Below are positions 35,589 through 60,725 of a stretch of DNA of 64,000 nt, piece by piece. Below the pieces are notes generated by a model that saw only the letters and a program-made list of their open reading frames with translations, ran no database searches and was not told where the DNA came from. The position numbers were made by a program, and so were the translations under genes. Each line of letters begins with the position of its first letter. Positions within the stretch are counted from its first letter, which is position 1. Source of the DNA: an uncultured Granulosicoccaceae bacterium (GTDB lineage: Bacteria > Pseudomonadota > Gammaproteobacteria > Granulosicoccales > Granulosicoccaceae); NCBI GenBank assembly GCA_937927895.1, contig CALGKA010000014.1, positions 1 to 64,000 on the forward strand, given 5' to 3'.

Positions 35589-37241
35589 ATGAATAACGAC
35601 GTTGAAACAAATAACAGAAACCGCGCGCAGCTAACAGTATTAGAGAAATATGGCCTATTGTTGATGGGTATTTTTCTGCTTATATTATCGGGTGGCAGAT
35701 TTGTTACTCCAGCGGCTGCATTTCTAGCACCAATCTTCCTGCTTAGGTTTACTAGAAATTCTTCCGTAAATGTCGGAATAGCAGTTCTTTATGTTTTGCT
35801 GTTCCTCAGTCTGTTGGTACGTTTACACGATTACATTGATGTATCGCAAACGACAAAGCTATTTTTAGTAGCAGGCTTTGCGCTTATAGAAGTAGCACCG
35901 TTCTTCATTGATCGTAAGTTATTTAACAAGCTTCCGGCAATTCTTGCTCCTTTGGTATTGTCTTGTGCGTTTGTGGTGCTGAGTTTTATAGCTGTGGCGG
36001 TAATGCCTTTTGGTTCTATGGGTGAAAAAGCCTATACCCAGGTAGGTAACAACGAACTAGTGCAAATGCTAACAATAACGGGGCCGCATGGAATCACGTT
36101 TGTGATTTTTTGGTTTGCGGCCACAATGGCAACTTTTTGGGATTCAGGGTTTTCATGGCGTCGTTGTAGAAGTCAGGTTGTGTTGATGTCATTGTGTGTA
36201 ATGATTATTTTTGTGGCTGGCGGCTTCAGAAATATTTTTGATGAAAACGAATCCAGTACCGTTCGTATTGCAGGGGTTGTAGGTAACAGAAGTGCCTTAG
36301 CGCAAGGTCTTCGCGACAACAAAATCGCATCAATTAAAACGTTGACTGGTGCCGAGGCTGCTTTAGAACCGGTGAGCGCATTGCTTACTAATCATCACGA
36401 TGATCTGTTTGCGAGAACCATTGCTGAAGCAAGCGCGGGTGCTGAAATTGTCGCGTGGGCAGAGGCTGACGGTGTAATAGTAAAGAGTGCTGAACCGGCG
36501 TTTATTGTCCGCGCAGCCAGTGTTGCAAAAGACGCTGGTATTTACCTTGTAGCTACTTTATTTGTGATAGATGATTCCACTAGTTCGGTGAGCACGGCGG
36601 TAAATAAATTAGTGGTGTTTAGCCCAGAGGGGCGGTCCTTAGGTCAATATACTAAAACACGACCGCTTTGGAATGATCACATAGTGTCGTCTGATAATGA
36701 AGTCTTATTGTTGGATACCGAGTTTGGTAAAATTGCATTCGCTATTGGTTTTGATTTAGATTTTCCGACATCCATGCGTGCAGCGGGTAGTGCCGATATT
36801 ATTATTGCACCATCACTTGATTGGAAAACGCTATCGCCACATCACAGCTTAATGGCAACTTTCCGCGGTGTTGAAAACGGCAGTGCATTGTTTAGACCAA
36901 CAAGTTATGGTCAATCCATTGCCAGTGATTCGCATGGCCGCATACTTGCGCAGTCCGATCACTTCAGAACCTCGCCGCATACCTTGGTGGCCAATGTGCC
37001 GACGCGCGGTGTGACTACTTTTTATTCTAGTGCGGGGGATTGGTTTGGGTGGCTTAATGTAGGGTTGTTATTGATCTTGTTATCAGTGTTTTTTTGGCGG
37101 CAGCGCAATGGAGATCAATTGGCAGAATCCCTTATAGACAGCGATGAAACAAACGCAGATGCGGTTCGAGATCGCAGCAGAATTACCGCCATTCAATGGC
37201 GTGATTCGCAAAGAGACAATAATTTAGACAAAAACGATTAA
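35589..37241 (+). CDS. Apolipoprotein N-acyltransferase-like membrane protein, catalytic Cys missing
   Basis: 550 residues: six predicted helices in the N-terminal ~215 residues, a periplasmic nitrilase-like domain (about 225-490) and a last helix (about 498-515), the Lnt layout. Of the Glu-Lys-Cys triad, Glu292 (AWAEADG) and Lys356 (QYTKTRPLW) align, but the Cys position in the GKIAFAIGFDLDFP strand is Gly387 where Lnt has ICYE. It is therefore unlikely to acylate lipoproteins by the known route. Possibly a binding or regulatory paralogue. Stand-alone gene. Confidence 0.75.
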   Translation: MNNDVETNNRNRAQLTVLEKYGLLLMGIFLLILSGGRFVTPAAAFLAPIFLLRFTRNSSVNVGIAVLYVLLFLSLLVRLHDYIDVSQTTKLFLVAGFALIEVAPFFIDRKLFNKLPAILAPLVLSCAFVVLSFIAVAVMPFGSMGEKAYTQVGNNELVQMLTITGPHGITFVIFWFAATMATFWDSGFSWRRCRSQVVLMSLCVMIIFVAGGFRNIFDENESSTVRIAGVVGNRSALAQGLRDNKIASIKTLTGAEAALEPVSALLTNHHDDLFARTIAEASAGAEIVAWAEADGVIVKSAEPAFIVRAASVAKDAGIYLVATLFVIDDSTSSVSTAVNKLVVFSPEGRSLGQYTKTRPLWNDHIVSSDNEVLLLDTEFGKIAFAIGFDLDFPTSMRAAGSADIIIAPSLDWKTLSPHHSLMATFRGVENGSALFRPTSYGQSIASDSHGRILAQSDHFRTSPHTLVANVPTRGVTTFYSSAGDWFGWLNVGLLLILLSVFFWRQRNGDQLAESLIDSDETNADAVRDRSRITAIQWRDSQRDNNLDKND

Positions 37242-41250: not shown

Positions 41251-43212
41251 ATGAAACTATTGACTGAAATAAAAGCGCGCTTCAAACCCGCACTTGAAGC
41301 GCTCCTGGAAGGCGCCAATGCTGCGGAAATTGACGCTCTGCTGTCGATGGTCCGACCCACCCAGGATGACAAATTCGGTGACTACCAAGTCAATTGCGCA
41401 ATGGCACTGGCTAAAAAGCTTGGCAGCGCACCGAGGGATATCGCGACCGCACTGGTAGAGCAGGTCAAGTTAGATGATCTCTGTGAGAAGGTTGAGCTGG
41501 CTGGGCCCGGGTTTATCAATCTCACCATCAAAGATATGTGGCTGAAAGGTGCTTTATCCAAGGTAATCGCCGATACGAATCTTGCGGTAGAGCAGGTGGC
41601 AGATCCACGAACTGTGGTTATAGATTTGTCGTCTCCGAATGTTGCAAAGCCAATGCACGTGGGTCATATACGCTCAACTGTTATTGGCGATGCACTGGCC
41701 AAAATTCATCGCTTTATTGGTCATAAGGTCATCACAGATAACCATCTAGGGGATTGGGGAACCCAGTTTGGAATGATCATCTATGGCTATAAACATTTTG
41801 TCGATGAACAAGCTTACCAACAAAACCCCGTTCAGGAATTGAGTCGGCTGTATAAATATGTACGGGTAATTGTTGATTACCATGGAGCGGCAAAGGCATT
41901 ACCTGAAGCTCAAGAATTAAAACAAAAGCAGCTCGGCGCTTTAGAAAAAATACAGGCGCAGGATCACACCGATGATAAAGCCAAGCTCAAGAAAGTTAAA
42001 AAAGATATACAGCGTCTGAAAGAAAAGATCGCCCTACAAGACGAGCTAATAGTGGGTTTTACTAAAACCCTGAACAGCGATGCAGAAATACAAGCGGTAG
42101 CCGCGCAGCATCCGACCATAGCAAACGATGTTTTGGTAGAAACAGCTAAGTTGCATGAAGGTGATAAAGAAAACCGCGAGCTATGGGATAAATTCCTACC
42201 GCATTGCCTGGACGATATCCAGCGAATCTATGATCGCTTGAATATTGAGTTTGACTATGTGCTTGGTGAAAGTTTCTACCAGGATAAACTGGCAAGCATA
42301 GTGGAAGAGCTAACCAACAAAGAGATAGCCACTGAAAGTGATGGTGCTATGTGTGTGTTCCTTGATGGTTTTGAAGCACCAATGATCATACGTAAAAAAG
42401 GGGGTGCGTTTCTATATTCAACTACAGACCTTGCCACTATTAGACACCGCGTTGAAGAATGGAAGGCAGACACCATGCTATACGTGGTTGATCATCGACA
42501 AGGTGATCACTTCGATAAATTATTCGCGGCATCAGAAAAGTGGGGGTATACCGATGTCGAATTAACCCACGTAAGCTACGGCACAGTAATGGGTGATGAC
42601 GGCAAGCCGTTTAAAACCCGTGCTGGTGACACCGTGGGGCTTGAAGGGTTAATTGATGAAGCAGAAAGCCGCGCTTTGGCAGTGGCTAAAGAACAGAACC
42701 CAAACCTTGAAGAAGATCGACAAAAAGAAATCGGCCGGGTAGTGGGGTTGGGCGCGTTAAAGTACGCAGATTTATCGCAGAACCGAAACTCTGATTACAA
42801 GTTTAGCTATGACAAAATGCTAGCGCTTAAGGGTAATACCGCTACTTATCTGCAGTACGCTAACGCTCGAGTGCATGGCATATTGCGAAAGTTAGATACC
42901 GATGTCGAGAAATTGCGTTCAAGCACTGACGACATAATATTTTCAGAAGCTGTAGAGCGGCAACTTGCTATGCAACTATTGCGCTTTGATGAAACTATAA
43001 ATGAAGTGCTTGCGGAGTATCGGCCAAATTTGTTGTGTAACTACTTATTTGATTTGGCGCAGCTTTTTGCGCGGTTTTTTGATCAGTGTTCTGTGCGGGA
43101 TGCAGCTTCTAGTGAAATTCAGTTGAGCCGATTGCAGCTTTGCGGGTTGACGTCGCGGACGCTTACTTGTGGGCTGGAGCTGTTGGGGATTGAGTCGCTG
43201 GAGCGGATCTAG
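41251..43212 (+). CDS. argS: Arginyl-tRNA synthetase
   Basis: Charges tRNA-Arg. 653 residues: N-terminal Add1 domain, class I catalytic core with HIGH-type HVGHIRST (about residue 137), RSTVIGDALAKI, DNHLGDWGTQFGMIIYG, a ~70-residue charged helical insertion (about 215-285, with DDKAKLKKVKKDIQRLKEKI), then DHRQGDHF, KPFKTRAGDTVGLEGL and the anticodon-binding domain ending SLERI. The insertion makes it longer than the E. coli enzyme and resembles the long ArgRS type. The last ~60 codons have a very unusual third-position composition (about 53 of 63 end in G or T) although the protein sequence is normal; see findings. Confidence 0.95.
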   Translation: MKLLTEIKARFKPALEALLEGANAAEIDALLSMVRPTQDDKFGDYQVNCAMALAKKLGSAPRDIATALVEQVKLDDLCEKVELAGPGFINLTIKDMWLKGALSKVIADTNLAVEQVADPRTVVIDLSSPNVAKPMHVGHIRSTVIGDALAKIHRFIGHKVITDNHLGDWGTQFGMIIYGYKHFVDEQAYQQNPVQELSRLYKYVRVIVDYHGAAKALPEAQELKQKQLGALEKIQAQDHTDDKAKLKKVKKDIQRLKEKIALQDELIVGFTKTLNSDAEIQAVAAQHPTIANDVLVETAKLHEGDKENRELWDKFLPHCLDDIQRIYDRLNIEFDYVLGESFYQDKLASIVEELTNKEIATESDGAMCVFLDGFEAPMIIRKKGGAFLYSTTDLATIRHRVEEWKADTMLYVVDHRQGDHFDKLFAASEKWGYTDVELTHVSYGTVMGDDGKPFKTRAGDTVGLEGLIDEAESRALAVAKEQNPNLEEDRQKEIGRVVGLGALKYADLSQNRNSDYKFSYDKMLALKGNTATYLQYANARVHGILRKLDTDVEKLRSSTDDIIFSEAVERQLAMQLLRFDETINEVLAEYRPNLLCNYLFDLAQLFARFFDQCSVRDAASSEIQLSRLQLCGLTSRTLTCGLELLGIESLERI

Positions 43213-43224
43213 TCTTTTGGTTTT

Positions 43225-43493
43225 TTTTGCCTTGCAGGCGGCTAACGAGCTTGGCATGCCTGCCGGCGGCCTTCGTTTGGAAAGACCCAAACAGAAGCAA
43301 AGGTCTTCTTGCTACTTTGCTTGCCCCTTGATTAACTGGGAAAGGGTGGCTGCGCCATTTTTTGAAATCATCTGGAATGGGGCCGCGCCCATTATTGTCA
43401 ACTATGGGCACATCTATGTGCACCGCGCTCAAAGCGCCGTCCCTGGCGCTTTGACCCCACGGAAGACTATTGCAAAAAACAACTAAAAGCGCG
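43225..43493 (+). repeat. Dispersed non-coding repeat, copy 1 (full)
   Basis: Starts with TTTTGCCTTGCAGGCGGCT 13 nt after argS and ends in the block CAAAAAACAACTAAAAGCGCG. The core (43295-43493) matches copy 3 (60237-60447) closely over nearly 200 bp, and its last ~70 bp match copy 2 (46827-46913). Contains the inverted pair AAGACC/GGTCTT and CAAAGCGCC-GTCCCT-GGCGCTTTG, a 9-bp perfect hairpin. Open frames through it are not conserved as protein (substitutions change residues), so it is taken as non-coding DNA or RNA. Confidence 0.88.
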
Positions 43494-43555
43494 GTAAAAG
43501 CACTGTGCGCTTTTGAGAGTTATGGGCGATCTTGATTGCAGATATAGGTATGTTA

Positions 43556-43619
43556 TTACTTAGTTACTTAGTTACTTAGTTACTTAGTTACTTAGTTACT
43601 TAGTTACTTAGTTACTTAG
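43556..43619. repeat. Octamer tandem repeat (TTACTTAG)8
   Basis: About eight perfect tandem copies of TTACTTAG directly abutting the stop codon of the amino-acid permease gene (43620). It lies beyond the coding sequence, so slippage would not change the protein. Read from the permease side it supplies stop codons repeatedly in all frames. Confidence 0.95.
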
Positions 43620-44360
43620 CTAATTACTTGTGTCGGTTTGCCATTTTCGTTCTAGCCAACGAACTCCGGCTGACACTATTAGAATAAGTAATAGGTATTC
43701 GATCAGAAGTATTGTGTAAATTTCTAGTGGGCGGTATTCGGTTACTACTAGTTCGTTGGCTTTTCTTGTTAGTTCTTGCATGCCTATTACTGATACAAGT
43801 GATGACATCTTTAGCATGTAAACCAACTGATTGCCCAGGGCGGGTAGTATTCTTCTTATTGCTTGCGGCAATATGACGAAGCGCATGGTGTCTGTGTAGC
43901 CAAGGGCTATCGTGTGGGAGGCTTCGTATTGGCCTTTGTCTATCGATTGAATGCCGGCTCTGAATATTTCTGCTTCAAACGCGCTGTCTGATAGCGCTAG
44001 CGCGATTACACCTGCCCAAAATACACTGATGCTTATTGGCAGTAACTGAGGTAGGCCGTAATACACCCATAGGATCATAACTAGAATGGGCACTGCCCTT
44101 ACTAGCTCTACGTATACGCGATTAAAACTTCTGATCCACTTGTTGGACGACAACCCGGGTAGAGCGACTAACAGACCTATAACAATAGAAATGCTGATGG
44201 CTGTCACCGATAACAATACGGTGTATTTTAGACCGCTGAGCATAAACTTGAGGTTGATTAAGCCTTTCGGTTTTGTCGGATCGACGACATACCAACCCCA
44301 ATCACTAGAGCATGCAGTTAAAAGCAGTAGGGCGCTGCATATAAGTAAAATTCTAATCAT
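43620..44360 (-). CDS. Polar amino-acid ABC transporter permease (HisM/GlnP type)
   Basis: 246 residues from ATG 44360 (an ATG at 44432 would add 24). N-terminal helix with a lipobox-like LLTACSSDWGW, then the permease core: LKYTVLLSVTAISISIVIG, ELVRAVPILVMILWVYYGLP and the EAA loop YEASHTIALGYTDTMRFVILP. Last residues RWLERKWQTDTSN. It has no ATPase or receptor gene adjacent; matching ones lie 11 kb away at 55.7-57.4 kb, the ATPase on the same strand. Third codon positions in its last ~100 codons are mostly A or C (about 75 percent), the mirror image of the argS bias. Confidence 0.87.
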   Translation of the reverse strand: MIRILLICSALLLLTACSSDWGWYVVDPTKPKGLINLKFMLSGLKYTVLLSVTAISISIVIGLLVALPGLSSNKWIRSFNRVYVELVRAVPILVMILWVYYGLPQLLPISISVFWAGVIALALSDSAFEAEIFRAGIQSIDKGQYEASHTIALGYTDTMRFVILPQAIRRILPALGNQLVYMLKMSSLVSVIGMQELTRKANELVVTEYRPLEIYTILLIEYLLLILIVSAGVRWLERKWQTDTSN

Positions 44361-44666
44361 GGTGTCAAAGGAGGTAGATTTTAGTGGAGCAGCTAAATTG
44401 CCTGGTCTGCTTGGGCTAAGCACACTCAACATGTTGAGTTGTTAGCGGTAACTATAGCGGTTATGCAAGTCATTGAAGCGCTGGTTGATGTAGGAATCTA
44501 ACAGATTCATGCTGTTTTTGTGTGAAGAATCAGCTAGTTCAAGTAGTTGCAATCTAGAAAAGTGAGTGCTCAGAAAAAGAAAACAATTCAAAATGGAACT
44601 CATATAGCTTTAAAAGCAATATACTTGTTAAAGAGCTCCCATAGTCACTGCACAGAGGACACTTAC

Positions 44667-46826
44667 GTGATTCACCCTGTAAAGAACCTACTTTCAAAGA
44701 AAATCATACTATCTAGCCTGTTTTTATCCGGCTTATGTTTAACCCAGCAGGGCTTTGCGCAGTCTGCCGGTGTTCAGTGTGTTGATACTGATGGTGACGG
44801 ATGGGGGTGGGACGGTGTCGCTTCATGCCTTGTAGAAAACCGCACCTCACCAGCGTCTGATTGCATTGATACTGACGGAGACGGCTGGGGCTGGAATGGG
44901 GTAGATTCTTGTTTTGTCGCAGGTTCAAACCCAGCAGCGAATACAGCTGGAAATACGGCCAGTGCTGAATGTATTGATCCTGATGGTGACGGCTGGGGGT
45001 GGAACGGTACAGATTCTTGTCTAGTTGACCAGGGTGCAGCTTCAGTAACGACTGCACCCACGGCAGCTGTATGTGTCGATACTGATGGAGACGGTTGGGG
45101 TTGGAACGGTGTGGACTCCTGCCTGGTGGGGAGCACTTCTGCAGTGGGCAATACACCCACAGATACCTCACCAGTGGCATCAGCGTGTGTTGATGCTGAT
45201 GGTGACGGTTGGGGTTGGAATGGCGTAGCTTCATGTGTACCAGGTAATGTAGCTGCCAGTACAACGCCAGTGACATCACCGGATACAACACCCATCACTG
45301 GCACTGTCGTTATCACTTCTATTGATGAGCTCGACGTAAAGTGGGGCGGTCTGCCTTTGCTCGCAGATACGACTAATAAGAGATTATTTTTGTCGGTTGG
45401 TGAAGATTTCACGAGCAAAACTTTGAGATCTGCAGAGCTAACGTACTTGCATGCAGACTCTGGATACTCACTGTTAGTTAATGGCCAGCAAGCTACCGTG
45501 GGAGCAACCTTAGACTTAGAGATTCAGCATGGTGATCTATTTCCTATAAGCATTTACCGCGGTGAATCATTGTTTGAACAATATGACCTGGTGATTACTA
45601 ATCTGCCTATAGTGCAGATTGTCGCAGATAGCATTGTTGATGAACCCAAGCTCCCTGGAACAATGCGTTGGGTAGATGGCGCTCGTGACATCGATACAGG
45701 CACAATGCCATTAGGTATAGAGATTAGAGGCAATTCATCTCAGGCATTCGACAAAAAAGCATTCTCTTTTGAGGTTCGAGATGAATCAGGCGACGGCACC
45801 AATATAGAGTTTTTAGATCTACGTAACGATGATGATTGGATTCTTGATGCAGCATTCCGGGATCAATCGTTTGTGCGCAACCTGGTGTCTCACGACTTAT
45901 TCAGAGACATGCGACCTTATGCGTACATAAACGATGGAGGTGAGCAAAAAGGACAATCAACTTTGGCTGGTGGTTTAGCCGAAGTTATCCTGAATTCTCG
46001 CTACCAGGGTGTGTATGTACTGCATGAAAGAATTGATAGAAAATTACTAAAGCTTTCTAAAGTAGATGTACCTGAGGATGATACAGGTGACCGTTGGGAC
46101 TTAGTCGACTTTACAGATCCGCAAAACGGCTCTGTGCTTTACAAGGCATCTTTAAGTGCTACCAATTTTTATACTACCGATGCAATTGAAAGTAAGTTCG
46201 AGCAAAAATATCCTGATGAAGATGACATAACTCACTATCAGCCATTGCTTGAATTGGCCGATTTTATAGCTAACTCAACCGATAGCGATTTTAATAGTCG
46301 TGTTGCTAGTGTTGTTGAGCTTGATTCAGTGGTGGACTGGTGGTTGTTAAGATTGGTCAGTGCCAACAGAGATGCGTTTCATAGAAACTATTACATGGCT
46401 CGTAGTGAAAATTTAAAATGGACTGTCGTTCCATGGGATTTTGATGCTACTTTTGGTATGGATTGGAGGGGCGGAGTTGAGCCTGATAGTGTAGATTATT
46501 ACAACCCGAGCGGTAATAGATTAGTAGGCCGATTAACCGAACACCCTCAAAATGGTTTTAATGCATTGGCTAAAGCAAGGTGGTCAGAGCTTCGTGCGTC
46601 GCTATTTACTGCTGACGCGATAGCTGACAGGTTTGCGTTTTATGCACAGCAAGTTGATCGTGGTCTGATGTTATCCGGTGAGACACCGCGACAGCGTAAT
46701 TTGCAGCGCTGGCCCGGCACTGGTAATACCGGGGCAAGTAACCCTGAGCTTGGAGATGTTGAGTATCTTCGTAGTTGGCTTGCAGAGCGGTTGGCGTTTG
46801 TTGATGGGGTTATGGAGTCTTTATAG
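44667..46826 (+). CDS. Secreted CotH-kinase-like protein with five DGDGWGW modules
   Basis: 719 residues from GTG 44667 (AGAGGA about 8 nt upstream; a TTG at 44547 adds 40 residues before the signal). Signal peptide cleaved after QQGFA (about residue 33). Residues about 38-195 carry five near-identical modules C-[VI]-D-x-DGDGWGW-[ND]-G-x-x-SC, each with two Cys, separated by Thr/Ala/Ser linkers. A strand-rich spacer (about 210-330) leads to a CotH-type domain: EIRGNSSQAFDKKAFSFEV, DWILDAAFRDQSFVRNLV, DRKLLKLSK and VVPWDFDATFGMDW, which carries the Asp pair seen in secreted CotH kinases. Probably phosphorylates or modifies extracellular proteins; next to the T1SS adhesin locus. Its last ~20 codons are G/T-ending and it runs straight into repeat copy 2. 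Confidence 0.82.
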   Translation: MIHPVKNLLSKKIILSSLFLSGLCLTQQGFAQSAGVQCVDTDGDGWGWDGVASCLVENRTSPASDCIDTDGDGWGWNGVDSCFVAGSNPAANTAGNTASAECIDPDGDGWGWNGTDSCLVDQGAASVTTAPTAAVCVDTDGDGWGWNGVDSCLVGSTSAVGNTPTDTSPVASACVDADGDGWGWNGVASCVPGNVAASTTPVTSPDTTPITGTVVITSIDELDVKWGGLPLLADTTNKRLFLSVGEDFTSKTLRSAELTYLHADSGYSLLVNGQQATVGATLDLEIQHGDLFPISIYRGESLFEQYDLVITNLPIVQIVADSIVDEPKLPGTMRWVDGARDIDTGTMPLGIEIRGNSSQAFDKKAFSFEVRDESGDGTNIEFLDLRNDDDWILDAAFRDQSFVRNLVSHDLFRDMRPYAYINDGGEQKGQSTLAGGLAEVILNSRYQGVYVLHERIDRKLLKLSKVDVPEDDTGDRWDLVDFTDPQNGSVLYKASLSATNFYTTDAIESKFEQKYPDEDDITHYQPLLELADFIANSTDSDFNSRVASVVELDSVVDWWLLRLVSANRDAFHRNYYMARSENLKWTVVPWDFDATFGMDWRGGVEPDSVDYYNPSGNRLVGRLTEHPQNGFNALAKARWSELRASLFTADAIADRFAFYAQQVDRGLMLSGETPRQRNLQRWPGTGNTGASNPELGDVEYLRSWLAERLAFVDGVMESL

Positions 46827-46913
46827 TGCACTGCGCTCAAAGCGCCGTCCCTGGCGCTTTGACCCCACGGAAGACTATTGCAAAAAACAACAAAAAGCGC
46901 GTTTAACTGCATT
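46827..46913 (+). repeat. Dispersed non-coding repeat, copy 2 (5'-truncated)
   Basis: Begins at the CotH gene stop codon with GTGCACTGCGCTCAAAGCGCC and continues through the hairpin GTCCCTGGCGCTTTG to CAACAAAAAGCGCGTTTAACTGC. Only the last third of copy 1 is present; the tail GCGCGTTTAACTGCATT is shared with copy 3. Confidence 0.85.
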
Positions 46914-46950
46914 AACCGATTCACTTAAACCTCACGTGCTTTCTTTTAAG

Positions 46951-46976
46951 GAAACCCACAAGCGTGAGCGTGGGAC
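46951..46976 (+). repeat. Small hairpin repeat R1
   Basis: GAAACCCACAAGCGTGAGCG then TGGGAC. Forms a CCCAC...GTGGG hairpin with inner GCG/CGC pairing. One of at least five copies of the family in the window (R2 47079-47105, R3 47205-47276, R4 60661-60725, R5 60760-60810). Confidence 0.8.
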
Positions 46977-47078
46977 TGACTTGTTAGAGTTTTGAGTTTG
47001 AATGATATAGCTCGAACTACGAGATTTGGTTGTGTGCAGTTCGGTTCTGGATATAAGCATGATGAGATCGGGGTGGTT

Positions 47079-47105
47079 AGTCCCACGCTAACGCTTGTGG
47101 GTTTC
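47079..47105 (-). repeat. Small hairpin repeat R2, inverted
   Basis: On the minus strand reads AAACCCACAAGCGTTAGCGT followed by GGGACTA. Opposite orientation to R1 and R3, 100 bp from each, so R1-R2 and R2-R3 could form long-range foldbacks in RNA. Confidence 0.8.
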
Positions 47106-47204
47106 GGTTGACGTACTTGACTCATAAAAAGTCGCAAAGCTGCTTATAGTACATGTCTATGTTGTGCTCGTTAGATTTCCATGCCGTGCTGTCAAGAGCT
47201 TTAG

Positions 47205-47276
47205 GAAACCCACAAGCGTTAGCGTGGGATTTTAGAACCGTAAAGCCAAATAATTATCATCACCTGAAAAAAGAAC
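47205..47276 (+). repeat. Small hairpin repeat R3 with conserved tail
   Basis: GAAACCCACAAGCGTTAGCG, TGGGA, then a tail AACCGTAAAGCCAAATAATT continuing to CACCTGAAAAAAG. R4 has the same tail in the form AACTGTGAAGGCTAATTATT, so the repeat unit is about 70 bp, not just the hairpin. Confidence 0.78.
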
Positions 47277-55653: not shown

Positions 55654-56469
55654 CTAGTGGGGCAGAATCTGCTGCAAGAACTCCTGGCAGCGTTTGCTAT
55701 CAGGTGCGGCGAAGAATTTTTTAGTATCAGATAGTTCTACTATTTTACCGTGGTCCATAAACACCATGGAGTCTGCAACCTTGCGCGCAAAGCCCATTTC
55801 GTGTGTGACGCAGATCATTGTCATGCCGCTTTCAGCAAGCTCTACCATTACATCAAGCACTTCGTTGATCATTTCTGGATCAAGCGCTGAGGTAGGTTCA
55901 TCGAATAACAGAATTTTCGGTTCCATGCACAGTGAGCGGGCGATAGCGACTCGCTGCTGTTGTCCACCCGATAACTGTGTGGGGTACTTTGCAGCTTGCT
56001 CTGGTATGCGCACTCGTTCGAGATATTGCATAGCCAGTTTTTCGGCTTCAGTGTTGCTTAGCTTGCCAGAGCGAACGGGCCCGAGTGTAAGGTTATCCAA
56101 AACGCTTAGATGCGGAAACAGGTTAAATTGCTGGAATACCATGCCAACGTTATCGTGAATCACCTTGAGGCTGGCTTTGCTGTTGTCTAGTTGGTGATCG
56201 GCGATTGAGATTGTGCCGCTATCGTGGATTTCCAGTTGATTAATGCATCTAATGAGCGTGGACTTACCCGACCCTGACGGGCCACACACCACAACGCGTT
56301 CACCCAGCTTTACATCGAGGGATACGTTGTTGAGTGCTTGAAAGCTACCGAAAAACTTGGATACCGCGCGCATGCTGATCAGCGCTTGTGGGTTTGCTTT
56401 TGGATTGGCTTTTTGATTGGCCTTTTGGTTGGCTTGAGGGTTTGTGGGGGTGTGCTGTGTTTGCGCCAT
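55654..56469 (-). CDS. Polar amino-acid ABC transporter ATPase (GlnQ type)
   Basis: 271 residues. The first ~28 are a low-complexity Asn/Gln/Lys/Ala/Pro stretch (QANQKANQKANPKANPQA) encoded by imperfect 12-bp DNA repeats and absent in ordinary GlnQ proteins. Then a standard domain: Walker A GPSGSGKSTLIRCINQLE, Q-loop MVFQQFNLFPHLSV, signature LSGGQQQRVAIARSL, Walker B ILLFDEPTSALDPEM, H-loop ICVTHEMGFAR. An internal Met (SMRAVSKFFG, about residue 33) could be the ancestral start. Divergent from the receptor gene; convergent with the HlyD gene. Likely partner permease at 43620-44360. Confidence 0.9.
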   Translation of the reverse strand: MAQTQHTPTNPQANQKANQKANPKANPQALISMRAVSKFFGSFQALNNVSLDVKLGERVVVCGPSGSGKSTLIRCINQLEIHDSGTISIADHQLDNSKASLKVIHDNVGMVFQQFNLFPHLSVLDNLTLGPVRSGKLSNTEAEKLAMQYLERVRIPEQAAKYPTQLSGGQQQRVAIARSLCMEPKILLFDEPTSALDPEMINEVLDVMVELAESGMTMICVTHEMGFARKVADSMVFMDHGKIVELSDTKKFFAAPDSKRCQEFLQQILPH

Positions 56470-58049: not shown

Positions 58050-59900
58050 ATGTCATTGAACGAATCATTGTCTTTGAAAAAATCACCGCAGGATCTTCAT
58101 GAACCCTCGGCTTGGTCGGTACTTAGGCGTCTCGGGAGGTACCTGGCGCGCTATAAAATGCGAGTGGCGGTGAGCTTGCTGGCGTTAGTTGTAGCCGCAA
58201 TAGCTACGTTGACTATGCCGGTAGCGTTTCGTTATCTGGTTGATATAGGTTTTGCTATGCCTGCAAGTGGTGCCACAGATCACGTCTCTGTAAGCGGTGC
58301 CAACGTAAACTTAATTTTTATCGGACTCTTTGCATTGGCCTCTATTTTAGCCCTGAGTACTGCGGTAAGGTTTTATTGTGTGTCATGGTTGGGTGAGCGC
58401 ATTACCTCTGATCTACGTAATGATGTTTACTCACAAGTGCTCGTGCAAGACCCACAGTTTTTTGAAAGCCTTAAGACCGGTGAGGTATTGTCGCGGCTCT
58501 CATCTGATACCACACTCATTCAGTCTCTCATCGGTACTAGTATTTCTATGGGGCTTCGAAACGTGCTGTTGTTTTTCGGTTCGTTATTCATGATGCTTTA
58601 TACCGATCTACGCTTAGCCACCATTATTGTTGCATTGTTATTGGTTGTAGTAGTGCCTATATTATTTTTTGGCCGCAAGGTGCGCCGTTTGTCACGCACC
58701 AGTCAAGACAAATTGGCAGATACGGGTGCCATGGCAGGGGAGACTCTAGGCGCTATGCAAATTGTTCAGGCCTATGGTCGTGAATCACTTGAGAGTAGTA
58801 AGTATGCAGACGCCACTAATCAGGCTTTTGATGCTGCTATTAATCGCAATAAGTCCCGTTCTTTTCTGACGGCGCTAGCTATCGTTTTAGTTTTTGGTGC
58901 TATTGTGCTGGTGCTTTGGTTGGGCGCTAAGGCGGTTATTGCAGGGACTCTATCAGCCGGGTTGTTAACCCAGTTTATAATGTATGCAGTCATTGTTGGT
59001 GGATCGGCTGCTGCCATGGCCGAAGTGTTCGGTGATATCCAACGCGCTGTGGGTGCGACAACACGCTTAATTGAATTGTTAGATGCTAAACCTACTATTC
59101 ATAGTCCGGTAGTGCAAACTAGCGCGACCGATAACACAGCGATACAAGCAACCTCAACAGCAGGCGCCAGTGTTGCTTTTGAAGGTGTCTCATTTAGCTA
59201 CCCTAGCAGGCCTAACGAACTATCACTCAATAACGTAAGCTTCACCGCACAGCCTGGTGAAACCATAGCGATCGTTGGTCCGTCAGGTGCTGGCAAGTCT
59301 ACCGTCTTGCAGTTGTTGTTGCGTTTTTACGATCCACAGTCGGGGGTAATAAGCTTAAACGGCATAGCTGTAACAGAGCTTAATCTTAAAGCATTGCGCA
59401 AATCAATAGGATTGGTCTCACAAGACAGTGTCGTATTCTCAGCCAATGCATTAGAGAATATTCGTTATGGCAGACTCAGTGCCACAGATGAAGAAGTCTA
59501 TGCCGCGGCCTCCAGTGCGCAAGCTGATGAATTTATTCGCAAGCTGCCAGACGGCTATCTGACCTATGTAGGGGAGCGTGGTACCAGATTATCAGGTGGT
59601 CAGAAACAAAGGCTGTCGATAGCCCGGGCGCTTATTAAAAATCCACCGCTGTTATTGTTGGATGAAGCCACCAGTGCTTTAGATGCAGAGAGTGAACATA
59701 AAGTACAGGTAGCACTTGAGCGCGCTATGGCGGGGCGAACTACGCTTGTTATTGCGCATCGATTAGCGACTATTAAAAACGCCGATAGGATTATAGTGCT
59801 TGATCAAGGGGGTATTGTTGAGAGTGGTACTCATGCTGAGTTGAGTCGGAGTGATGGTATGTATGCATCGCTTGCTGCTATGCAGTTTAGTGGTGAATAG
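58050..59900 (+). CDS. MsbA/LmrA-type ABC exporter (fused TMD-NBD)
   Basis: 616-residue half-transporter acting as a homodimer in the inner membrane. TMD with six helices (about 38-330) including RLSSDTTLIQSLIGTSISMG, then NBD: Walker A IVGPSGAGKSTVLQLLLRFYDP (core GPSGAGKST), Q-loop IGLVSQDSVVFSANALENI, signature LSGGQKQRLSIARAL, Walker B PLLLLDEATSALDAESE and H-loop LVIAHRLATI. Substrate could be lipid, peptide or drug. Its last ~32 codons are G/T-ending (about 29 of 32), running into the third repeat region. Confidence 0.9.
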   Translation: MSLNESLSLKKSPQDLHEPSAWSVLRRLGRYLARYKMRVAVSLLALVVAAIATLTMPVAFRYLVDIGFAMPASGATDHVSVSGANVNLIFIGLFALASILALSTAVRFYCVSWLGERITSDLRNDVYSQVLVQDPQFFESLKTGEVLSRLSSDTTLIQSLIGTSISMGLRNVLLFFGSLFMMLYTDLRLATIIVALLLVVVVPILFFGRKVRRLSRTSQDKLADTGAMAGETLGAMQIVQAYGRESLESSKYADATNQAFDAAINRNKSRSFLTALAIVLVFGAIVLVLWLGAKAVIAGTLSAGLLTQFIMYAVIVGGSAAAMAEVFGDIQRAVGATTRLIELLDAKPTIHSPVVQTSATDNTAIQATSTAGASVAFEGVSFSYPSRPNELSLNNVSFTAQPGETIAIVGPSGAGKSTVLQLLLRFYDPQSGVISLNGIAVTELNLKALRKSIGLVSQDSVVFSANALENIRYGRLSATDEEVYAAASSAQADEFIRKLPDGYLTYVGERGTRLSGGQKQRLSIARALIKNPPLLLLDEATSALDAESEHKVQVALERAMAGRTTLVIAHRLATIKNADRIIVLDQGGIVESGTHAELSRSDGMYASLAAMQFSGE

Positions 59901-59944
59901 TCTGGTGTCCATGCGGGGCTTTTCCTGCGGAAGGCTGTTGTTTT

Positions 59945-60060
59945 GATTTGCCTTGCAGGCGGCTGGCTTGTGTTGCTTGCCCTGCCGGCGGCTTGTATGC
60001 GTTGCTAGCCCTGCGGGGGCGGCTGTTGTTTTGGATTGTCCTGCGGACGGCTTACGTGCG
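59945..60060 (+). repeat. Degenerate tandem GC-rich units, 5' module of repeat copy 3
   Basis: A series of related units (GCCTTGCAGGCGGCT, GCCCTGCCGGCGGCTTG, GCCCTGCGGGGGCGGCT, GTCCTGCGGACGGCTTACG) spaced about 30-40 bp apart, expanded relative to the two units at 43230-43272 in copy 1. About 70 percent G+T on the + strand. Confidence 0.75.
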
Positions 60061-60066
60061 TGGCAT

Positions 60067-60113
60067 GCCCAGCCTCTTACTTTTTAAAAAGACCAAAAAG
60101 TAAGAGGCTGGGC
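60067..60113. repeat. 19-bp perfect inverted repeat
   Basis: GCCCAGCCTCTTACTTTTT (60067-60085) and AAAAAGTAAGAGGCTGGGC (60095-60113), 9-nt loop containing AAGACC. Very strong foldback in either DNA strand. It sits in the middle of repeat copy 3; the sequence TTCTTGCCCAGCC at 60231 repeats part of the arm. Confidence 0.92.
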
Positions 60114-60236
60114 AAGAACCTAACCCCCGCAAAATATTAGCTCGATTAATGACCTCGAGAGCGCTCTACTTTTGCAGTTGGTACTCGTTGAGTTTAAAGC
60201 AGGGCATTGTCCGGCGCGTGTTCTTGCCCAGCCTTT

Positions 60237-60447
60237 AAGCAAAAAATCTTCTTGCTACTTTATTGTCCCTTTTTTAACTGGCAAGGGATGGCTGTGCCAT
60301 TTTTTGAAATCATCTGGAATGGGGTCGCGCCCATTATTGTCAACTATGGGCACATCCATGTGCACCGCGCTCAAAGCGCCGTCCGTGGCGCTTTGACTCC
60401 ATTCCAGAAGATTTCAAAAAACAACAAAAGTCGCGTTTAACTGCATT
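60237..60447 (+). repeat. Dispersed non-coding repeat, copy 3 core
   Basis: Near-identical to 43295-43493, including CATTTTTTGAAATCATCTGG, CCCATTATTGTCAACTATGG and the hairpin CAAAGCGCC-GTCCGT-GGCGCTTTG. Between copies the differences at coding-frame positions change residues (Ala/Val, Tyr/His, Pro/Arg), which argues against a conserved protein. Followed by the tail GCGTTTAACTGCATT shared with copy 2. Confidence 0.88.
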
Positions 60448-60660: not shown

Positions 60661-60725
60661 GGAAGCCCGCCAGCGTGAGCGAGGGACTATAAAACTGTGA
60701 AGGCTAATTATTATCTAACCTCCGA
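60661..60725 (+). repeat. Small hairpin repeat R4
   Basis: GAAGCCCGCCAGCGTGAGCG, AGGGAC, then AACTGTGAAGGCTAATTATT. Variant of the R1/R3 family with a CCCGC stem base and the same ~45-bp tail as R3. Confidence 0.75.

Follow-up and report, generated by a model that had tools for sequence, protein, structure and literature searches.

Why should two genes on opposite strands that converge on the same repeat both favor G and T, at the third positions of their last codons, on one and the same strand? The question is raised by a 64,000-nucleotide stretch of DNA (the window) from an uncultured Granulosicoccaceae bacterium (contig CALGKA010000014.1), in which argS, encoding arginyl-tRNA synthetase, and a convergent permease gene flank one copy of a dispersed repeat (copy 1). 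A prediction made from the sequence alone had attributed the bias to an amino-to-keto change of one strand, anchored at the repeat and leaving both proteins normal. Here we show that around nearly every copy of this repeat in the genome the reference strand assigned to the copy, termed element-plus, has been depleted of A and C in favor of G and T.

At copy 1, our recount agrees with the original one of 53 of 63 argS codons. About 54 of the 64 third positions in the last two 32-codon blocks of argS are G or T, the successive blocks from its end having fractions of 0.84, 0.84, 0.53 and 0.62. The mirror image in the permease is found as well, with + strand G/T fractions of 0.63, 0.90, 0.63 and 0.80 per 30 codons from the stop. 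The window contains two further copies. The ABC transporter gene before copy 2 has G/T third positions at 0.93 and then 0.70 in 30-codon blocks from its stop, and the CotH gene before copy 3 at 0.83, 0.67 and 0.73, so that the bias is present although copy 3 consists of half a core. Raw skew in 300-base windows reaches +0.29 at 42951 and +0.33 at 59751, beside copy 2, yet also +0.28 at 35951 and +0.27 at 56301, where no copy was found nearby. Raw skew therefore does not set the repeat apart within the window, and the argument depends on the genome as a whole.

Strand composition beside the copies

A BLAST search of copy 1 against its own genome (G000) gave 78 matches, of which 40 candidates were scored, and 28 aligned cores (alignment A1) were used to build a covariance model, R1. 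The model matched this genome 96 times. Once 34 weaker matches to the opposite strand of this palindromic core and an end fragment of 37 bases had been removed, 61 copies were kept. In the relatives, 74 of 86 matches were kept, the others being 11 opposite-strand matches and one weak separate match.

In the 25 same-strand genes ending just upstream of a copy, the last three 30-codon blocks have G/T third-position fractions of 0.804, 0.703 and 0.615, compared with 0.527, 0.518 and 0.521 at 226 control gene ends of the same genome located more than 2 kb from any copy (Mann-Whitney p = 1.3e-12). A fraction of at least 0.75 over 60 codons is reached by 15 of the 25 genes and by 2 of the 226 controls. 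The effect is present in four of five relatives: the contrast is significant in G001 (10 genes), G003 (14), G005 (3) and G007 (4), and not in G006 (4 genes, p = 0.30).

The third-position profiles show that genes on both strands are affected, and that the footprint is strong over about 500 bases upstream and weaker over about 1.5 kb downstream. In same-strand genes upstream, values of 0.52-0.53 beyond 700 bases rise through 0.57, 0.66, 0.73 and 0.77 to 0.86 towards the copy (0.74 and 0.76 nearest the copy with other filters); in opposite-strand genes upstream, they rise to 0.63-0.77 within 400 bases (0.59-0.64 with other filters). Downstream, same-strand genes start at 0.54 within the first 200 bases (113 codons), reach 0.68-0.71 between 200 and 700 bases and stand at 0.62-0.64 between 700 and 1500 bases, and opposite-strand genes 0.65-0.70 up to 300 bases, 0.48 at 300-400 and 0.57-0.63 up to 1.5 kb. 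The 300-400 dip coincides with a frequent position of the inverted palindromic "B" units described below.

The flanks were compared in bins from -400 to -150 upstream and 0 to +150 downstream, omitting bins that ran off contigs and, in one of the profiles, bins near another copy. Element-plus G+T skew is positive in 55/56 upstream and 55/57 downstream flanks of the 61 copies, the exceptions being L165 upstream and L165 and L114 downstream. Part of this skew comes from the G/T-rich array and tail of the element itself, which take up about 150 bases next to the copy upstream and 100 bases downstream; only the codon counts escape this contribution. Regional codon skew places 43 of 59 copies on the leading strand. 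With these labels, which derive from the same data, leading copies (40) have positive skew in 35/35 upstream and 39/40 downstream flanks, and lagging copies (16) in 15/16 and 13/14; same-strand genes of lagging copies go from 0.42-0.44 far from the copy to 0.62-0.74 near it, against the regional trend. The predicted anchoring at the repeat is thereby supported: polarity follows repeat orientation, whatever the replication strand or gene direction.

Gene direction bears on a transcriptional origin, in which readthrough from upstream into the structured repeat would slow RNA polymerase and expose the non-template strand. The nearest upstream gene is on the same strand for 34 of the 61 copies and on the opposite strand for 19 (none was found for 8), and the footprint extends further upstream in same-strand genes, both of which fit. 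However, where an opposite-strand gene lies within 500 bases upstream, the skew is equally strong (12/12 upstream, 11/11 downstream), and in cases with an opposite-strand upstream gene downstream codons at 400-1000 bases still reach 0.64-0.79. We therefore regard this explanation as improbable.

Flank skew also increases with core intactness (rho 0.41, n = 55, and 0.37, n = 56; for codons alone, rho 0.32, p = 0.12, n = 26), which suggests that live copies maintain the footprint. A model in which the footprint ages with core divergence was rejected, as the sign was opposite.

Orthologous gene ends and the kind of change

For four genes of this genome that have a copy, R1 gave no match in 37 loci of relatives, and 36 orthologues were compared; a cut argS (L038) and weak hits (L314, L319-L328, L342) were not used. 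Some loci extend just a short way past the gene (140 bases in L035), and a copy further out is possible there. As the original prediction would have it, the orthologous ends are mostly flat. In G005, argS and the permease converge without a repeat and neither is biased (argS 0.50 and 0.62 per 32 codons). One of the 36 ends reaches at least 0.75 over 60 codons, that of spoU in G008 (0.80/0.80), followed by argS in G011 (0.60/0.87); the spoU value may have arisen by chance or may be left over from a copy since lost. Among the repeat-bearing loci, orthologues of their own genes were available for 18 genes, just four of them within 1 kb of a copy.

These comparisons also bear on target choice, meaning a preference of the repeat for insertion sites with a strand already rich in G and T. 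Copies do favor gene 3' ends, but the mostly unbiased orthologous ends already make such a preference unlikely for the four genes tested. Among 250-base windows lying more than 1.5 kb away from copies, just 0.16% of positions reach an absolute skew of 0.36; they fall in ten places, and at two of these the repeat's array is present near a contig end. Furthermore, the sequence upstream of L165, an intact-looking copy, is unbiased, as expected of a recent insertion. We consider target choice the least probable of the explanations discussed here.

Over the last 60 codons, argS and SpoU remain conserved, with identities to relatives of 0.78-0.90 and 0.72-0.92. The abhydrolase and TSP3 ends (0.33-0.58 and 0.42-0.50) are less conserved than the whole proteins. 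Synonymous saturation in argS and SpoU together with conserved proteins would point to gradual change filtered by selection and not to one burst.

At fourfold sites, A+G (0.44) and C+T (0.56) stay constant; A falls as G rises and C as T rises, A and C being about halved near copies. At twofold sites the log odds are 1.37 ± 0.14 for A/G and 0.99 ± 0.15 for C/T, while the replication asymmetry of the same genome gives 0.53 and 0.64 (with labels from the same data). The predicted amino-to-keto change thus stands, as both A to G and C to T. The strength of the A/G shift, at least equal to that of C/T, counts against plain deamination as its source, since hydrolytic deamination hits C far more. Polarized changes point the same way, with A>G or C>T at 20/35 ancestral A or C sites near copies and 57/212 far from them; keto-ward transversions are also up near copies (7/35 vs 19/212). 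In this genome the shift extends to codon positions 1 and 2 (0.572/0.505 vs 0.524/0.459), whereas in five relatives pooled position 1 is unshifted (0.530 vs 0.531) and position 2 shifted (0.507 vs 0.467). The change depends little on neighboring bases, and variants within the core of the 28 aligned copies have no bias (35 vs 35 transitions).

If G/U-rich RNA or G/T-rich DNA were favored by selection near the repeat, the purine and pyrimidine totals could equally stay unchanged. Against such selection, genes shift in opposite senses according to their strand, the first two codon positions are displaced as well in this genome, and the most over-represented 6-mers relative to codon shuffles reach z of only 3.3 and are not G/T motifs; we hold selection to be quite improbable. 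A dedicated DNA deaminase aimed at the repeat would account for A and C both being affected on one strand. It is very unlikely given the small influence of sequence context, and we know of no single enzyme that deaminates both A and C.

The repeat family and a possible mechanism

R1 finds the repeat in 13 of 14 genomes of the genus and, with stricter filters across the family, in 14 of 48 genomes and 2 of 6 genera. A typical copy comprises, from 5' to 3', short GC hairpin units, a second hairpin, the core and a tail. The core, of about 150 bases, forms a long stem with two inner hairpins; one copy folded with its array gave z of -6.7 as RNA and -7.4 as DNA. The consensus fold of the core has 40 pairs, just 2 of them changed on both sides, which is thin covariation support. 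The variable part of the core stem exists in two versions in alignment A1, and in several copies, including copy 1, the stem arms pair poorly with each other. Many copies are followed 200-400 bases downstream by palindromic "B" units, mostly in opposite orientation and in places alternating. In G003, G006 and G007, copies often form facing inverted pairs a few hundred bases apart (e.g. L133, L134, L143, L144). Short-period tandem arrays occur at 0.22 per kb within 600 bases of copies versus 0.05 per kb elsewhere, and 9 of the 16 arrays near copies have 8-base units; the octanucleotide arrays differ in sequence from place to place (window 43556-43619, L157:7927-8047, L104:1220-1280 and others). 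A promoter and terminator scan gave little above shuffles (1 vs 2.6; 3 vs 2.3), and a plasmid search gave no match.

On the strand opposite to element-plus, the core resembles the TwoAYGGAY RNA (Rfam RF01731), folding to two hairpins with loops that are mostly ANGGAY. The first loop is ATGGAT in 22 of the 28 aligned copies; the second is mostly AGGGAC, and a minority fit AYGGAY. Infernal placed the matches in each locus opposite to element-plus: of 18 loci tested, 7 exceeded the gathering score (43 bits), two of them in this genome, 6 fell below it and 5 were unmatched at E 0.5. L014 scores 38.4 bits. Copy 1, whose first loop is altered to ATAGAT, had no match at E 0.5, and at the gathering score Rfam has no match within the 64-kb window. 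Across the class, where up to 9 candidates were scored per genome, RF01731 matches occur in 18 of 274 genomes (loci of other genera: L343-L372), more than one in 13 of the 18, so that the family looks like a patchy, multi-copy dispersed repeat well beyond this genus. PMC2864571 lists TwoAYGGAY as a probable RNA without function, and PMC4333381 suggests CsrA binding; here, the core belongs to a repeat of high copy number that is accompanied by hairpin arrays and a mutation footprint. At 28 RF01731 loci of other genera, the footprint is weak or absent: upstream gene ends have 0.563 versus 0.512 in the remainder of the same 14 genes, and downstream genes 0.478 versus 0.515 (16 genes). The footprint thus seems to require something of this genus, either the form of the element that it carries or its repair machinery.

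We tentatively favor, at somewhat less than even confidence, a reading in which element-plus is repeatedly single-stranded around each copy and the exposed strand is damaged. The exposure could stem from a displacement loop, from an R-loop formed by a plus-sense transcript or from a gap beside the hairpins that is slow to be filled; the strand would then undergo A-to-G and C-to-T change, the core would escape by folding on itself, and the footprint would accumulate through many generations, subject to purifying selection. End resection or a bidirectional origin would flip the sign at the copy, and the finding of one sign on both sides would argue against either. The R-loop suggested in the original prediction would, if formed by a TwoAYGGAY-like RNA, expose the A/C-rich strand, which is the wrong one. 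With similar reserve, the mobile structured-RNA repeat could be described as a local, strand-specific mutator whose live copies impose a two-sided, orientation-locked tract while sparing the core.

Several observations weigh against strand exposure. A-to-G change is at least as strong as C-to-T, keto-ward transversions are raised near copies too, and codon position 1 is unshifted in the pooled relatives. Upstream opposite-strand genes are less affected, flank skew is higher beside more intact cores, a relation not expected from age alone, spoU of G008 is biased without a detected repeat, and RF01731 copies in other genera have little or no footprint. In addition, the support is mostly compositional, the polarized substitutions coming from four genes and distant relatives.

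Some of these points suit a nearly as good explanation, the error-prone resynthesis of element-plus beside copies, by gap filling or by copying through single-stranded DNA or cDNA of the element. An unproofread polymerase forming G-T mispairs would introduce A-to-G and C-to-T changes on the new strand. The strength of the A/G shift, the slight context preference, the exemption of the core, as though renewed, and the concentration of tandem arrays near copies all agree with it, and cDNA of an RNA from the TwoAYGGAY strand would be the element-plus strand. Nevertheless, no reverse transcriptase family tracks copy number: PF00078 has one divergent hit in this genome, eight in G012, which has no copies, and none in G008 (10 copies) or G010 (12 copies), although absences from draft genomes carry little weight. 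Y1 transposases were detected in 7 of 14 genomes, with no hit in the draft genomes G003 or G001, which both have many copies. Both enzyme families were set aside as drivers, and we rate resynthesis as a serious contender that is on balance unlikely. A reverse transcriptase common to six genomes of the genus (L276, L277, L278, L285, L287, L288), 55-78% identical between genomes, is presumably retron-like.

We lean slightly towards strand exposure because the spectrum shares components with the replication asymmetry of the genome and because A-to-G change marks single-stranded time in organelle DNA. In organelle displacement-loop replication, as described in PMC2695485, one strand is single-stranded and A-to-G change also affects synonymous third positions, as here. 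The organelle gradient spans the distance between origins of a whole organelle genome, whereas the footprint is local, at dozens of chromosomal copies. Bacterial replication asymmetry likewise enriches G+T on one strand with the same A/G and C/T components, but the footprint is local and has the same sign whichever the regional strand. Diversity-generating retroelements also tie localized mutation to a structured RNA. In contrast to these, no reverse transcriptase tracks the copies (in draft genomes), A and C both change instead of adenine only, and the changed flanks are unique genes, different at each copy. The repeats known as REP/BIME share multi-copy palindromic units at gene ends, and the "B" units alternate in orientation; we know of no mutation footprint around them. 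No published counterpart was found in the open-licence literature.

Replication and transcription are known sources of strand-biased mutation in bacteria. In the present case the bias seems to be set by a dispersed repeat, on either side of it and irrespective of the regional replication strand. The footprint would offer dozens of natural replicates per genome for studying single-stranded or badly copied chromosomal DNA, and would be the first trait for the orphan RNA family TwoAYGGAY. It is also a warning that codon usage near repeats can reflect local mutation and not selection.

Features of the window

Table 1. Positions of the three repeat copies and of adjoining features within the window
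Feature	Position	Strand	Basis or remark
argS (arginyl-tRNA synthetase)	41251..43212	+	Pfam PF00750, PF05746, PF03485
argS final ~63 sense codons, third positions G/T-shifted	43020..43209	+
Copy 1 (L001), 5' part: short GC hairpin unit(s), then second hairpin before core	43227..43343	+	Own-genome BLAST, alignment
Copy 1, core	43344..43493	+ (element-plus)	R1 match 176.4 bits; alignment A1
Copy 1, TwoAYGGAY-like RNA (would be on this strand)		-	Opposite-strand Rfam matches of other copies
Octamer TTACTTAG, 8 copies, adjoining copy 1	43556..43619	+
Convergent permease gene, 3' codons A/C-shifted on own strand	43620..44432	-	Pfam PF00528
CotH-kinase gene, final 60 codons	46644..46823	+	Gene by Pfam PF08757
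Copy 3: 3' half of core only, directly after CotH-kinase gene stop	46827..46901	+	R1 match 63.8 bits over 46753-46901, extending back into the gene; boundary read from sequence
Palindromic "B" units, alternating, downstream of copy 3	46942..47229	.
ABC transporter gene, final 60 codons	59718..59897	+	Gene by Pfam PF00664, PF00005
Hairpin array upstream of copy 2	59932..60075	+
Copy 2, core	60286..60435	+	R1 180.4 bits
Palindromic "B" unit downstream of copy 2	60661..60689	-

Copy 2 is split by an insertion with inverted ends (60105-60234), which by eye has no G/T bias, as in a recent insert. Among the named genomes found, the nearest relative of the argS product is from Pirellulaceae (58%), which suggests that the gene may have been acquired by transfer. 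Finally, imperfect direct repeats at 44761-45235 and 1834-2151 encode protein units of the DGDGWGW type.

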